A program made the position numbers and the translations under genes. A stretch of 8,363 nt of DNA from the NCBI GenBank assembly GCA_903927855.1, contig CAIYOL010000336.1, forward strand, positions 1-8,363, given 5' to 3'. The notes beneath the pieces are model-generated. The model ran no database searches, was not told where the DNA came from, and saw only the letters and a program-made list of their open reading frames with translations. Positions 2,969 to 8,363 of this stretch are shown in pieces; the first letter of the stretch is position 1, and the number at the start of each line of letters is the position of its first letter. This stretch comes from an uncultured Planctomycetota bacterium (GTDB lineage Bacteria > Planctomycetota > Phycisphaerae > Sedimentisphaerales > Anaerobacaceae).

Positions 2969-3039
2969 GCGGGTGTAGCTTAGTGGTAAAGCGCCAGCCT
3001 TCCAAGCTGGCCATGTGGGTTCGATTCCCATCACCCGCT
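2969..3039 (+). tRNA. tRNA-Gly (anticodon UCC)
   Basis: A 71-nt cloverleaf can be folded by hand. The acceptor stem pairs 2969-2975 with 3032-3038. The D stem pairs GCTT (2978-2981) with AAGC (2989-2992). The anticodon stem pairs CCAGC (2994-2998) with GCTGG (3006-3010) around loop CTTCCAA, putting anticodon TCC at 3001-3003. The T stem pairs 3015-3019 with 3027-3031 around TTCGATT. The discriminator base is U at 3039. CCA is not encoded, so it must be added after transcription. It reads GGA and, by wobble, GGG glycine codons. Confidence 0.97.
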
Positions 3040-3833: not shown

Positions 3834-4043
3834 ATGATTGGAATGGATTTGAATCATTGTCGGATTGTGGAAAAGGGGCTTACAGGGGAGCGGGCGGTTG
3901 ACGAACAAACCCTTGCCTCGCTGGAAATTCTTGCCGAGCGGTTGGAACGGCTCAAAAAACTCGACAAGCTTTTTTCCAGCATTGAATTTTCGTCTGCCGT
4001 TAAAAAGCTTAAGACCCGCAGAAATGTCTTGGCCGTAAGCTGA
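3834..4043 (+). CDS. Unrecognised 69-aa coiled-coil-like protein between mraZ and rsmH
   Basis: The ATG at 3834 is preceded by GGAGG (3824-3828) at 5-nt spacing, one of the clearest ribosome-binding sites in the window, and lies 19 nt after the mraZ stop. A second in-frame ATG at 3843 is too far from it. The product is small, charged and cytosolic-looking, with no signal peptide or membrane segment. Residues about 24-62 form a Leu/Glu/Lys-rich heptad-like helix (LASLEILAERLERLKKLDKL), and the C-terminus is basic (KKLKTRRN). I do not recognise the family. Its place in the dcw operon suggests a role in division or envelope regulation, or as a MraZ or RsmH partner, but that is inference from context. 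The same stretch could be extended upstream in frame to 3681, but that part overlaps mraZ and is not plausible. Confidence 0.75.
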   Translation: MIGMDLNHCRIVEKGLTGERAVDEQTLASLEILAERLERLKKLDKLFSSIEFSSAVKKLKTRRNVLAVS

Positions 4044-5067: not shown

Positions 5068-5913
5068 ATGGCTTCCGACGCTAAAATTGGGTTACTGTTA
5101 GGTTTGGTCTTTATATTCATAATTGCACTTATAATTAATGGGATGCCGAGCTTTCATGAAAAAGGAAGCAACAATCAGTTGACTACCAATATGGTTAGTT
5201 TGCAGAATAATCCGCCGGCTATCGCAGCCAAGGAGCGTGGGGTTATCAGCCTGAGAGGAGCAGTTGAAAAAAAGACCGCGCAGGTTGAGCTGCCTTCCAC
5301 AGGCAACCAGGATGTTCTCCCTACGACGGCAGTGCCGAAAAGTGTCTTAGTTGTAAAAGAGAATACGGCGTTGGAAACGATTGTTGCTGCTGCCGCACAG
5401 GCGGTGGCGGCAAAAGATGAAGGTCAAAAGACCGAATCGGATGAGGCAATTCTTTCAAAAATCTATGTCGTCAGTAAAGGTGATAGCCTTGCCAGTATAG
5501 CCAGAAAATGTTATGGCTCCCAGCAGGGCAGCAAAAAAGTAAATGTCGCCAGGATATTCGACGCCAATCGCAAGTTATTGAAGTCGCCTGATGAAATCAG
5601 TGTCGGGCAAAAGCTTGTCATACCGCAGTTGTTGGCTTCGGCGCCGGACAAAGGCAAGATTGTGAACGTTCTTTCCGGGACGGAGTTTACGAAGGTTGAT
5701 TCTATCGGCAAGAAGCATCTTGAGGCTAATGGTCGCCAGGCGGAGCAAAGCAATGAGTACGTTGTGCGGGAAGGCGATAGTTTATGGCAGATTGCTGCCG
5801 AGCAGCTTGGAAATGGAAATCGCTGCAGCGAAATAGCAGAACTAAACGCCGGTGTTTTGAACGGCGAAAATAATCTTTCCGTTGGGATGCGTTTGAAAAT
5901 GCCGGCACGATAA
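5068..5913 (+). CDS. Membrane-anchored protein with two LysM domains
   Basis: 281 aa, starting at an ATG with a good AAGGAG site. Residues 7-24 form one hydrophobic segment (GLLLGLVFIFIIALII) after a short cytosolic N-terminus, so it is probably a type II single-pass protein with the rest in the periplasm. A low-complexity Ala/Lys/Glu linker covers about 30-130. LysM 1 spans about 132-187 (IYVVSKGDSLASIARKCYG to SVGQKLVIPQ) and LysM 2 about 230-279 (EYVVREGDSLWQIAAEQLG to SVGMRLKMP). LysM domains bind N-acetylglucosamine in peptidoglycan; no catalytic domain is present. It occupies the place between rsmH and the ftsL-like gene, where most dcw clusters have no such gene. A role as a septal peptidoglycan tether or targeting factor is inference. 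The domain call is firm. Confidence 0.92.
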   Translation: MASDAKIGLLLGLVFIFIIALIINGMPSFHEKGSNNQLTTNMVSLQNNPPAIAAKERGVISLRGAVEKKTAQVELPSTGNQDVLPTTAVPKSVLVVKENTALETIVAAAAQAVAAKDEGQKTESDEAILSKIYVVSKGDSLASIARKCYGSQQGSKKVNVARIFDANRKLLKSPDEISVGQKLVIPQLLASAPDKGKIVNVLSGTEFTKVDSIGKKHLEANGRQAEQSNEYVVREGDSLWQIAAEQLGNGNRCSEIAELNAGVLNGENNLSVGMRLKMPAR

Positions 5914-5922
5914 AGCACATCG

Positions 5923-5973
5923 ATTGATTGTTGCTTATTGATTGTTGAATTATCAGTTATTAATTATCAATAA
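5923..5973. repeat. AT-rich direct and inverted repeats before ftsL-like gene
   Basis: An 11-nt direct repeat ATTGATTGTTG occurs at 5923-5933 and 5937-5947, 14 nt apart. TTATTGAT (5935-5942) and ATCAATAA (5966-5973) form a perfect 8-bp inverted repeat with a 23-nt loop. The motif TTATTGATT also appears at 2902-2910 in the other AT-rich gap. I see no confident promoter in it; the role may be a binding site, a weak promoter or simply filler. Confidence 0.6.
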
Positions 5974-5979
5974 CGCTGT

Positions 5980-6210
5980 ATGAGGTCCTGGTTTTGTTTT
6001 ACTTTTGTTGTTTTTTGTTTTACGGCAGCTTTAATTCTTACCATTTATCTCCGTAACGCCGACAATCGCATTTTCTATAAGCTTTATACGTGCACAGCCG
6101 AGCAAAGTCGGCTAAAACAGCAGCTTTGGCAGAAGCAACTGCGGCTGGAAAATTTAATAAGTCCTGCCGCTGTCTTGCACCGTCTTGACGGTAATAAAGC
6201 AGGACATTGA
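5980..6210 (+). CDS. ftsL: FtsL-like small bitopic cell-division protein
   Basis: 76 aa. It has a short N-terminus, one hydrophobic segment at about 4-23, and then a periplasmic part with a heptad-like helix at about 38-60 (EQSRLKQQLWQKQLRLENLI) ending in SPAAV. This layout (transmembrane segment, leucine-rich coiled coil, then a 'LxSP' turn) and the position immediately before ftsI are typical of FtsL, which forms the FtsQ-FtsB-FtsL complex that activates FtsW and FtsI at the septum. Sequence identity in this family is low, so the call rests on topology and context. It is shorter than many FtsL proteins and lacks a long cytosolic N-terminus. The ATG at 5980 has no clear Shine-Dalgarno. Alternative: a lineage-specific divisome scaffold equivalent to FtsL or FtsB. 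Confidence 0.7.
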   Translation: MRSWFCFTFVVFCFTAALILTIYLRNADNRIFYKLYTCTAEQSRLKQQLWQKQLRLENLISPAAVLHRLDGNKAGH

Positions 6211-6252
6211 AAAATTGTTTTAAAAGTAAGAGAATCAAGCTTCACTATCGAA

Positions 6253-6268
6253 TGAAAAGTTGAAAAGT
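6253..6268 (+). repeat. 8-bp perfect tandem duplication at the ftsI start
   Basis: TGAAAAGT occurs twice in direct succession (6253-6260 and 6261-6268). The A at 6252 makes an ATG with the first copy, but that ATG reads only three codons (MKS) before TGA at 6261-6263. Removing one copy would restore an ATG in frame with ftsI and give the same N-terminal residues MKSVR. The mini-ORF stop overlaps the TTG start of ftsI. Confidence 0.8.
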
Positions 6269-7963
6269 GTACGAATTATCATTTTCTTCTTTGTTTTGCT
6301 GATTGTGGCATTTTTGTCACTGGCGGGGCGGTGTTTTTATCTGCAGTTTCTTAAAAGCGACGATTATATTGCCGCCTGTGCCAGGCAACAGCAGGGGCGC
6401 ATAATCCAAATGCCTCAACGCGGCGTGATTCTCGATTGTCGGGGAAGGGTACTTGCCGCGAGCAATAGAGTTCAGACTATTTTTGCCGAGCCGAGAGTTA
6501 TAAAAGACGCCAAGACTACCTCCACCGAACTTGCCCCGATATTGGATATGGGCGCACACGAAATCTGTAAGCTTATCACCGACAGTAAAAATCCTGGCTT
6601 TACTAAAATCAAAGCAGGCGCCGACGCAGACCAGTGTGGAGCAGCGGCTAAAATTTATGGCATCGGTGTTCAGTCGGATTGGCGAAGGTATTATCCGGTC
6701 GGTTCTCTGGCTGCACATGTCGTTGGTTTTACAAGTTCTGACAACCACGGCTTGGGGGGAATTGAGCTGCAATACGACAAGAAGCTTGGCGGTTCGTCTG
6801 GACAGGACATTTTTTTTGCCGATGCAGCTCGTCGGCCAGTCCGGCTGAAACAACAGGATAGCGTTGTCAGTGATGGTGTCGGCATTATTTTGACCCTCGA
6901 TGCCACCATCCAGCAGTTCGCACGGACCGAACTTATGAAGCAATACCGCGCTTTCCAAGCCGAGTCGGCCGTGGCGATTGCGGCTGATGCCAAAACGGGG
7001 GCGATTTTGGCACTTGTTTCGCTGCCCGATTTTGACCCTAACAACATTCAGTTAGTTGCCGTCGACCATTTCCGTAATCGGGCGGTAACCGACCAGTTTG
7101 AACCCGGCAGTATCATAAAGCCGGTCGTCGCTGCTGTCGCAATCGACGCGGGCGCTATTAACAGGAACGAGAGAATATACTGCGAAGATGGCAGCTATCA
7201 CGGCAAGGGCTTCGGCAGCATCAGCGAATACGGCGGCCATCGCTATGGAAGCCTGACGATAGATGAGATTCTGACTGTTTCGAGCAACATAGGAATGGCC
7301 AAAGTCGGACAAAAGCTCGGCAAGGAAAAGCTCTACAACGGGATGAAACGTTTCGGCTTCGGCAAAGAAACAGGCCTCGAATTGCCGGGCGAGGCGGAGG
7401 GTTTCCTGCCGCCTTTGCAAAGCTGGACGGGGTACAGCGTGACTCGAATACCTTTCGGACAGGAAATTTCCGTAACCGCGATTCAGCTCATGCGGGCCTT
7501 CTGCATACTTGCCAATGGCGGGCATTCGGTCCAGCCGTTCCTTGTCAGGGCAATGGTGGACAGCGACGGCAAGATTATTGAAAGAAATGAGCCGGAGCCG
7601 TCCGCGGGTTTTATTATTGACCCTGAAGTCGCTAAATGGATTGTTACCAAAGCTATGGTGGACGTGGTCAATGACGAGAAAGGCACCGGCAAACTGGCCA
7701 AGCTGGAAAAATGGCAGGTGTTCGGAAAGACCGGAACTGCCAACGTCGCCAGCAGCGACCGGCGGGGATACTCCGAAAACGAATTTATAGCATCCTTTAT
7801 AGGCGGAGCGCCTGCCGAGGACCCGAAAGTGCTCGTTCTGGTTTCAGTCCGAAGGCCCAGAGTTTCTCTCGGCAAAGGTTATACCGGCGGGGCAGTCGCC
7901 TCTCCAGTTGTCGGCAGCATACTCGAAAAAACCCTCACTTACCTCGAAAAACATCCGCTCTAA
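6260..7963 (+). CDS. ftsI: Septal peptidoglycan transpeptidase (class B PBP, FtsI/PBP3-like)
   Basis: 567 aa from TTG. It has a short basic cytosolic start, a membrane anchor (about 6-22), a PBP dimerisation domain (about 45-195, with RGVILDCRGRVLAAS at 54-68 and GGIELQYDKKLGG at 166-178) and a transpeptidase domain (about 235-560). The active-site motifs are complete: SIIK (284-287, nucleophile Ser284), SSN (341-343) and KTGT (490-493). It cross-links septal peptidoglycan in the periplasm and is the target of beta-lactams; no PASTA domains follow. The position after the ftsL-like gene fits FtsI rather than an elongation PBP. TTG 6260 is the only start in the frame: the in-frame stop TAA is at 6227-6229, and no ATG, GTG or other TTG lies between. 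The upstream ATG at 6252 is out of frame because of an 8-bp duplication. No clear Shine-Dalgarno is visible. The gene ends 121 bp before a convergent PBP gene. Confidence 0.95.
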   Translation: MKSVRIIIFFFVLLIVAFLSLAGRCFYLQFLKSDDYIAACARQQQGRIIQMPQRGVILDCRGRVLAASNRVQTIFAEPRVIKDAKTTSTELAPILDMGAHEICKLITDSKNPGFTKIKAGADADQCGAAAKIYGIGVQSDWRRYYPVGSLAAHVVGFTSSDNHGLGGIELQYDKKLGGSSGQDIFFADAARRPVRLKQQDSVVSDGVGIILTLDATIQQFARTELMKQYRAFQAESAVAIAADAKTGAILALVSLPDFDPNNIQLVAVDHFRNRAVTDQFEPGSIIKPVVAAVAIDAGAINRNERIYCEDGSYHGKGFGSISEYGGHRYGSLTIDEILTVSSNIGMAKVGQKLGKEKLYNGMKRFGFGKETGLELPGEAEGFLPPLQSWTGYSVTRIPFGQEISVTAIQLMRAFCILANGGHSVQPFLVRAMVDSDGKIIERNEPEPSAGFIIDPEVAKWIVTKAMVDVVNDEKGTGKLAKLEKWQVFGKTGTANVASSDRRGYSENEFIASFIGGAPAEDPKVLVLVSVRRPRVSLGKGYTGGAVASPVVGSILEKTLTYLEKHPL

Positions 7964-8084: not shown

Positions 8085-8363
8085 TTATTCTGCTGTATGG
8101 TTATTTTTCCCGATATAGTTGGCGTCGATGCAGAAGCGGATGATGTCACGCGCGATAGGGGCGGCATCGCTTGAGCCGTGCTGGCCGCCTTCAACAAGGA
8201 CCGCAATCGAAATCTTTTTGCTGGAGCTATCTTCTGCAAAACCGCAGAACCACGCGTTCTCAGGGTTTTCAGTCGAGCCGGTCTTGCCATAAACCTTCAC
8301 GCCTCGCTCGGAGAAACCTGTAGAGGTAAATTCGTTATAAGCTGTTCCGCCGGATTCGTTAAC
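8085..8363 (-). CDS. Penicillin-binding transpeptidase, C-terminal part (partial)
   Basis: 92 codons plus a stop are visible; the gene continues past the right edge of the window, so its start is not seen. The fragment begins with VNESGGTAYNEF, then VYGKTGSTENPENAWFCGFA. K27-T28-G29 is the third active-site motif of the penicillin-binding protein fold, and AWFxGFA is the strand that normally follows it. IAVLVEGGQHGSSDAAPIARDII is typical of the C-terminal end of MrdA/PbpA-type class B transpeptidases or similar PBPs without a PASTA tail. It is convergent with ftsI. It differs clearly from the ftsI C-terminus, so the two are not a recent duplication. Whether it is the elongation PBP2 or another class cannot be decided from this piece. 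The last ten residues (YIGKNNHTAE) are not conserved-looking and may derive from the junction. Confidence 0.88.
   Translation of the reverse strand, partial: VNESGGTAYNEFTSTGFSERGVKVYGKTGSTENPENAWFCGFAEDSSSKKISIAVLVEGGQHGSSDAAPIARDIIRFCIDANYIGKNNHTAE

Follow-up and report, generated by a model that had tools for sequence, protein, structure and literature searches.

A probable TTG start for ftsI within an octamer pair at the ftsL-ftsI junction of an uncultured planctomycete

In the division cluster of an uncultured planctomycete, the ftsI reading frame opens at a TTG codon over which the octamer TGAAAAGT is repeated head to tail. The question raised by this arrangement is whether a recent duplication has displaced an earlier ATG start, as the initial annotation of the locus proposed, or whether start codon and repeat were inherited together. 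The window analysed here is an entire contig of 8363 bases (C336) from a 2.05-Mb genome in 417 contigs with a completeness of about 90%. We regard it as probable, with good though not full confidence, that ftsI is translated from TTG 6260 and that the TGAAAAGT pair at the ftsL-ftsI junction is an inherited echo and not a new ATG-displacing duplication. On that reading TTG is often kept as the ftsI start of these planctomycetes and misplaced by gene callers, and a motif on the start codon that looks striking in a single genome can prove to be an inherited feature of the junction. A non-exhaustive literature search found nothing on this ftsI start.

The locus and the candidate start codons

The genes of the window follow the order mraZ, a small ORF, rsmH/mraW, a LysM protein, an ftsL-like ORF and ftsI (Table 1). 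FtsI matches the Pfam transpeptidase (PF00905, E 7.8e-73) and dimerisation (PBP_dimer, PF03717, E 1.4e-17) domains, and the named relatives found with it are mostly Phycisphaerae, Sedimentisphaerales and other Planctomycetota MAGs. A Pfam search with the ftsL-like ORF gave no match; its name rests on its position and on a LISPAAV/LINPAAV tail common to the relatives. The initial annotation spoke of an essential gene, a status that is not established here, since a Planctopirus limnophila paper (PMC10632474) reports ftsI as not essential in Planctomycetes.

Some further features of the cluster may be recorded. The small ORF in the mraZ/rsmH interval (3834-4043, 69 aa) has no Pfam match, and the LysM-domain protein (5068-5913) lies inside the division cluster, between rsmH and the ftsL-like ORF. 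The minus strand at 8085-8363 carries the end of a second transpeptidase-domain protein (PF00905, E 2.7e-08), convergent with ftsI; among the relatives, weak second matches are seen near ftsI in a number of cases.

Table 1. Features at the ftsL-ftsI junction, in window coordinates
Feature	Coordinates	Strand	Remarks
ftsL-like ORF	5980..6210	+	76 aa; stop TGA 6208-6210, 49 nt upstream of the ftsI TTG
ftsI-frame reading from TTG	6185..6223	+	overlaps end of ftsL; stops at TAA 6221
TGAAAAAT	6208..6215	+	earlier near-copy of the octamer; contains ftsL stop codon
Spacer	6211..6259	+	between ftsL and ftsI; in-frame TAA at 6221 and 6227
Mini-ORF ATG AAA AGT TGA	6252..6263	+	3 codons; TGA overlaps the TTG start (TTGA 6260-6263)
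First TGAAAAGT	6253..6260	+	in ftsI frame, inside an Asn-Glu-Lys-Leu tract
Second TGAAAAGT	6261..6268	+	within ftsI codons 1-3 (TTG AAA AGT)
ftsI (class B penicillin-binding protein)	6260..7963	+	TTG start; 567 aa

The TTG start of the initial annotation is confirmed as the opening of the frame, which has 567 residues: TTG 6260-6262 is the first in-frame ATG, GTG or TTG downstream of the in-frame TAA at 6227. The next in-frame candidates, TTG 6296 and GTG 6305, both fall inside the membrane segment. Measured from the three candidates in turn, the longest stretch lacking charged or strongly polar residues comprises 18, 11 and 8 residues, so that the N-terminal membrane segment is retained when FtsI starts at TTG 6260. 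For two database copies of the same protein (P0001 and P0002), gene callers have nonetheless placed the start at TTG 6296 and GTG 6305, respectively. RNA folding around the ftsI start gave no stable structure (z +1.36 and +0.93). The promoter search found one 9-of-12 match in the spacer, at 6207-6235, with three promoter-like sites on both strands of the region against 1.2 expected.

The start codon among relatives

Starts were compared over FtsI loci drawn from the family and from some near relatives outside it. The set comprised 97 sequences including the window, of which 75 were unique; 60 could be aligned at residue 1 or 2 and 15 could not. Copies of the window (L001, L002, L099 and L100) and duplicates of the same stretch were removed before counting. 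At the position of 6260 the 60 alignable loci, which are related and so do not give independent counts, have TTG in 34 cases (window included), ATG in seven, GTG in four and other codons in the remaining 15. Both congeners have TTG (L003, 82%; L032, 78%). The alignment of related starts suggested by the initial annotation thus comes near to contradicting it, TTG being the commonest state, although not all the loci have this codon. TTG starts occur in bacterial genes generally, and their retention within a protein family, as here in ftsI, is likewise familiar; the only unusual aspect is their persistence in the ftsI of these genomes.

Protein databases tell a similar story once the origin of each entry is considered. 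Among the best 120 of 5211 homologues, 71 begin exactly at the 6260 residue (40 written M and 31 written L), 33 are extended N-terminally (23 of these with Leu at the 6260 residue), 14 begin downstream of the TTG (11 within the membrane segment) and two lack an N-terminus. All 31 L starts belong to entries found in JGI only. In a tally made by eye, with multi-source entries such as P0057 left out, 31 of the 35 JGI-only proteins that begin at this residue within the same best 120 are written L, the four M starts being P0003, P0012, P0087 and P0092. The pairs P0105/P0111 and P0027/P0028 are each identical apart from an M or L as first letter, and an M in other sources can therefore hide a TTG. 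From the locus counts together with these source-dependent first letters, TTG is likely to be the ancestral ftsI start. P0003, the closest distinct protein (90%) among the matches listed, is written M in a source where L is usual, and this sister may use ATG at the 6260 position. Starts overlapping or near ftsL have been annotated upstream in P0007, P0009, P0016, P0017, P0023, P0024 and P0033; in such relatives the TTG may encode an internal Leu.

Origin of the octamer pair and of the longer spacer

The exact 8-bp tandem described in the initial annotation is present: the window has two copies of TGAAAAGT and no more, at 6253-6268, the extent of 6252-6268 quoted earlier including in addition the A of the ATG. 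It is equally correct that a version with one copy would read ATG AAA AGT GTA CGA. In 500 dinucleotide shuffles of the window, exact 8-bp tandems had a mean of 0.186 start positions and at least one appeared in 11.4%; when only the surrounding 150 bp were shuffled, 3000 times, the mean was 0.009. The octamer tandem is hence uncommon locally, yet unexceptional across 8.4 kb. Exact octamer pairs are not rare in the window, since a second one lies at 1441-1457, inside a minus-strand ORF (9-1589). That such a pair should fall on the start codon by chance is nevertheless unlikely.

Related loci show that the ftsI start tends to be echoed just upstream, a tendency that follows from two sets of counts. 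Exact tandems with a unit of 5-12 straddle the ftsI start in six of the 60 loci, window included (units 8, 8, 7, 7, 6 and 6), the rate at control anchors being 1.4% (200 of 14400); a tandem-repeat scan of the ftsI loci gave at least 16 of 60, with the window's pair counted, where the controls gave 6 and 6.85. Comparison of the octamers upstream and downstream of the join yields no more than three mismatches in 17 of the 34 TTG loci, while permuting the upstream octamers gave a mean of 4.4 and none of 5000 permutations reached 17. After thinning to 24 loci, in groups chosen by hand, nine pairs remained at this threshold against a mean of 3.3 (7 of 5000 permutations reached nine); at no more than two mismatches the count of three was not unusual, being reached by 497 of 5000. 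The congener L003 has an exact octamer pair of its own, TGAAAAAT twice, in which the ftsL stop TGA heads the first copy and the TTG stands at the join, and pairs with a single mismatch are found in L039, L068 and L087. Judged from these loci, the paired octamer predates this species. The echo likely exists because TGA or TAA followed by A-rich bases resembles TTGA followed by A-rich bases.

The window differs from L003 in the distance from the ftsL stop to the TTG, which is longer by some 45 nt; TGAAAA repeats make the exact placement of the extra bases ambiguous. A mobile or repeated origin of this stretch was considered and rejected, since 6215-6252 is single-copy, with no further copy in the genome at up to three mismatches. 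TGAAAARTTGAAAARYGT, similarly, has one occurrence in the genome at up to two mismatches, its reversed control also giving one match. TGAAAAAT (at 6208) precedes the first TGAAAAGT (at 6253) by 45 nt, and a deletion from one to the other would produce the L003 arrangement; the difference may thus reflect gain in the window or repeat-mediated loss in the relatives, both being compatible with the sequences. Changes in the length of the junction would likely have been helped by the TGAAAA repeats.

Translation of the junction from TTG 6185, in frame with ftsI, gives LTVIKQDIEKLF, a stop, a single K, a second stop and then ENQASLSNEKLKSVR. The N-terminal extension of P0033 aligns without gaps to the translation of 6185-6274, with 20 of 30 residues identical, and the NEKL peptide recurs in P0005, P0006, P0040, P0041, P0042 and P0083. 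On these two grounds the long form of the junction is likely older than this species. Short-form and long-form N-termini, as labelled by the analyst, require at least five changes on a quick tree of 16 scored rows. In the congener locus L032 (genome G001), a run of seven A just before position 3001 puts the extension upstream out of frame with ftsI.

How do these observations bear on other accounts of the junction? The initial annotation held that a recent 8-bp duplication turned ATG AAA AGT GTA CGA into a mini-ORF plus TTG, weakening ftsI and leaving a slippage-prone site that may switch its expression. The exactness of the pair and the small chance of its landing on a start codon speak for this, as do the restoration of an in-frame ATG on deletion of one copy, the M of P0003 in a source that mostly writes L, and the excess of straddling tandems over control anchors. 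We nevertheless consider such an event improbable, and the claim of a displaced ATG is mostly unsupported: TTG is the commonest state and is present in both congeners, L003 has its own exact pair, and the first copy sits in a tract for NEKL, a peptide also encoded by several relatives. Should P0003 indeed have one copy, the TTG outgroups on the tree (L003, and P0004, which is written L) would make a contraction in P0003 the simpler course. Phase variation can work by repeat slippage, and the present tandem shares with such systems a unit that is not a multiple of three and a position on the start; it differs in having only two 8-bp copies and in the prevalence of TTG among relatives. Less probable still, and indeed very unlikely, is a sequencing or assembly error concealing a genome with one octamer. 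The sequence does rest on a single MAG contig. However, P0001 and P0002 are found on three contigs each (up to 8375 and 14163 bases long; the window has 8363), which may include the window's contig or derive from the same reads; the callers there started downstream of MKSVR and not at an ATG, as expected if the one-copy ATG is absent, and the congener L003 shows an octamer pair independently.

It is also unlikely that the ancestral start was TTG 6185, overlapping ftsL, the extension then being lost through the in-frame TAA codons at 6221 and 6227 and the start moving to TTG 6260. The gap-free match of P0033 from 6185 would fit such a history, and five further proteins are annotated from the 6185 residue (P0007, P0023 and P0024, written L; P0016 and P0017, written M), with P0009 annotated from one residue later. 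Similarity of the early residues is, however, forced by the overlap with ftsL whatever the start, and of the two congeners L003 has TCG at this place while L032 is out of frame there. P0015 and P0016, identical beyond the start, are annotated with different starts, so that the extension is partly a caller's choice, and the preponderance of starts at the 6260 residue (71 of the best 120 of 5211 proteins) is a further point against it. Inheritance of the TTG start together with its echo remains our preferred reading.

The mini-ORF and translational coupling

The Met-Lys-Ser-stop mini-ORF of the initial annotation, with its TGA overlapping the TTG, is borne out. It arises because AAT GAA AAG TTG contains ATG AAA AGT TG(A) out of frame, and it is likely a by-product of the Asn-Glu-Lys-Leu tract, a peptide that several relatives encode. 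Comparable mini-ORFs occur at two other loci, L006 and L039.

Whether the mini-ORF has a part in translation depends on the spacing of ftsL and ftsI. In the 29 TTG loci with an assigned ftsL (L017, L054, L068, L087 and L098 fall outside this number), the distance from ftsL stop to TTG is 3-5 nt in 13 and 22-200 nt in the other 16; L068 has a gap of 4 nt in a separate, smaller locus set. The 13 short gaps resemble known termination-reinitiation pairs, as described in two papers (PMC10666635, PMC12548453), and so does the overlap of mini-ORF and start in the window as TTGA, a spacing of -4; unlike those pairs, the window has its ftsL stop 49 nt away, beyond the few nucleotides of such coupling, and a putative mini-ORF of just three codons. 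Coupling is described as dropping steeply with spacing and nearly abolished by some 20-38 nt (PMC10666635); studies cited in a review (PMC12548453) saw no influence of spacing as far as +25 nt, or coupling still present at +62 nt.

In relatives where ftsL and ftsI are tightly packed, L003 among them, the ftsL stop falls in the first octamer copy, 3-5 nt before the TTG, and from this spacing ribosomes finishing ftsL would be expected to restart at the TTG. In the window, because of the 49-nt gap, the predicted main route is direct initiation at TTG 6260, on a leader that is A-rich and unstructured. Reinitiation across the gap may also take place, and ribosomes could pass from the mini-ORF to the TTG by way of the TTGA overlap.

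A three-codon ATG ORF is present in three of the 16 long-gap TTG loci (the window, L006 and L039) and in none of the 13 with short gaps, although the short-gap locus L065 has a mini-ORF of four codons. Three of the 34 TTG loci have an ATG at -8, the mean per offset being 0.31. The contrast between long and short gaps, with the window as one of its three cases, is no more than suggestive. The arrangement itself is easily come by, for in 13 of the 34 TTG loci an ORF started by ATG, GTG or TTG, not more than about 60 nt away, likewise closes in the TTGA overlap. The mini-ORF pattern ATGAARARTTGARRAR was found 38 times in the 89 genomes of the family, spread over 30 of them, and its reversed control 18 times; only in G000 and G095 does the pattern lie at ftsI, and the motif alone therefore means little. 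A more elaborate proposal makes the mini-ORF a relay cistron that replaces the distant ftsL (ATG 6252 to TGA to TTG), with the number of octamer copies setting FtsI output: two octamers would give the relay and the TTG, one octamer a direct ATG start, and P0003 would be a candidate for the one-copy state. We hold this to be unlikely; were it true, the locus would offer a natural test of the minimal size of a coupling cistron.

Short direct repeats near start codons have a parallel in the Beggiatoaceae, where TAACTGA heptamers are reported to be tandemly repeated shortly before start codons (PMC4679880). Similar in kind are the heptamer arrays that L055, L036 and L008 have up to about 55 nt upstream of the ftsI start, with 5.9, 3.3 and 2.4 copies respectively; the window's repeat differs from the Beggiatoaceae heptamers in unit, length and copy number, having two copies that include the start codon. 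Elsewhere in the window, heptamer tandem arrays are present at 2890-2913 (ATTGATT), 2930-2965 (ATAGTAA) and 5948-5971 (AATTATC), the second of which directly precedes a tRNA-Gly gene (2969-3039).
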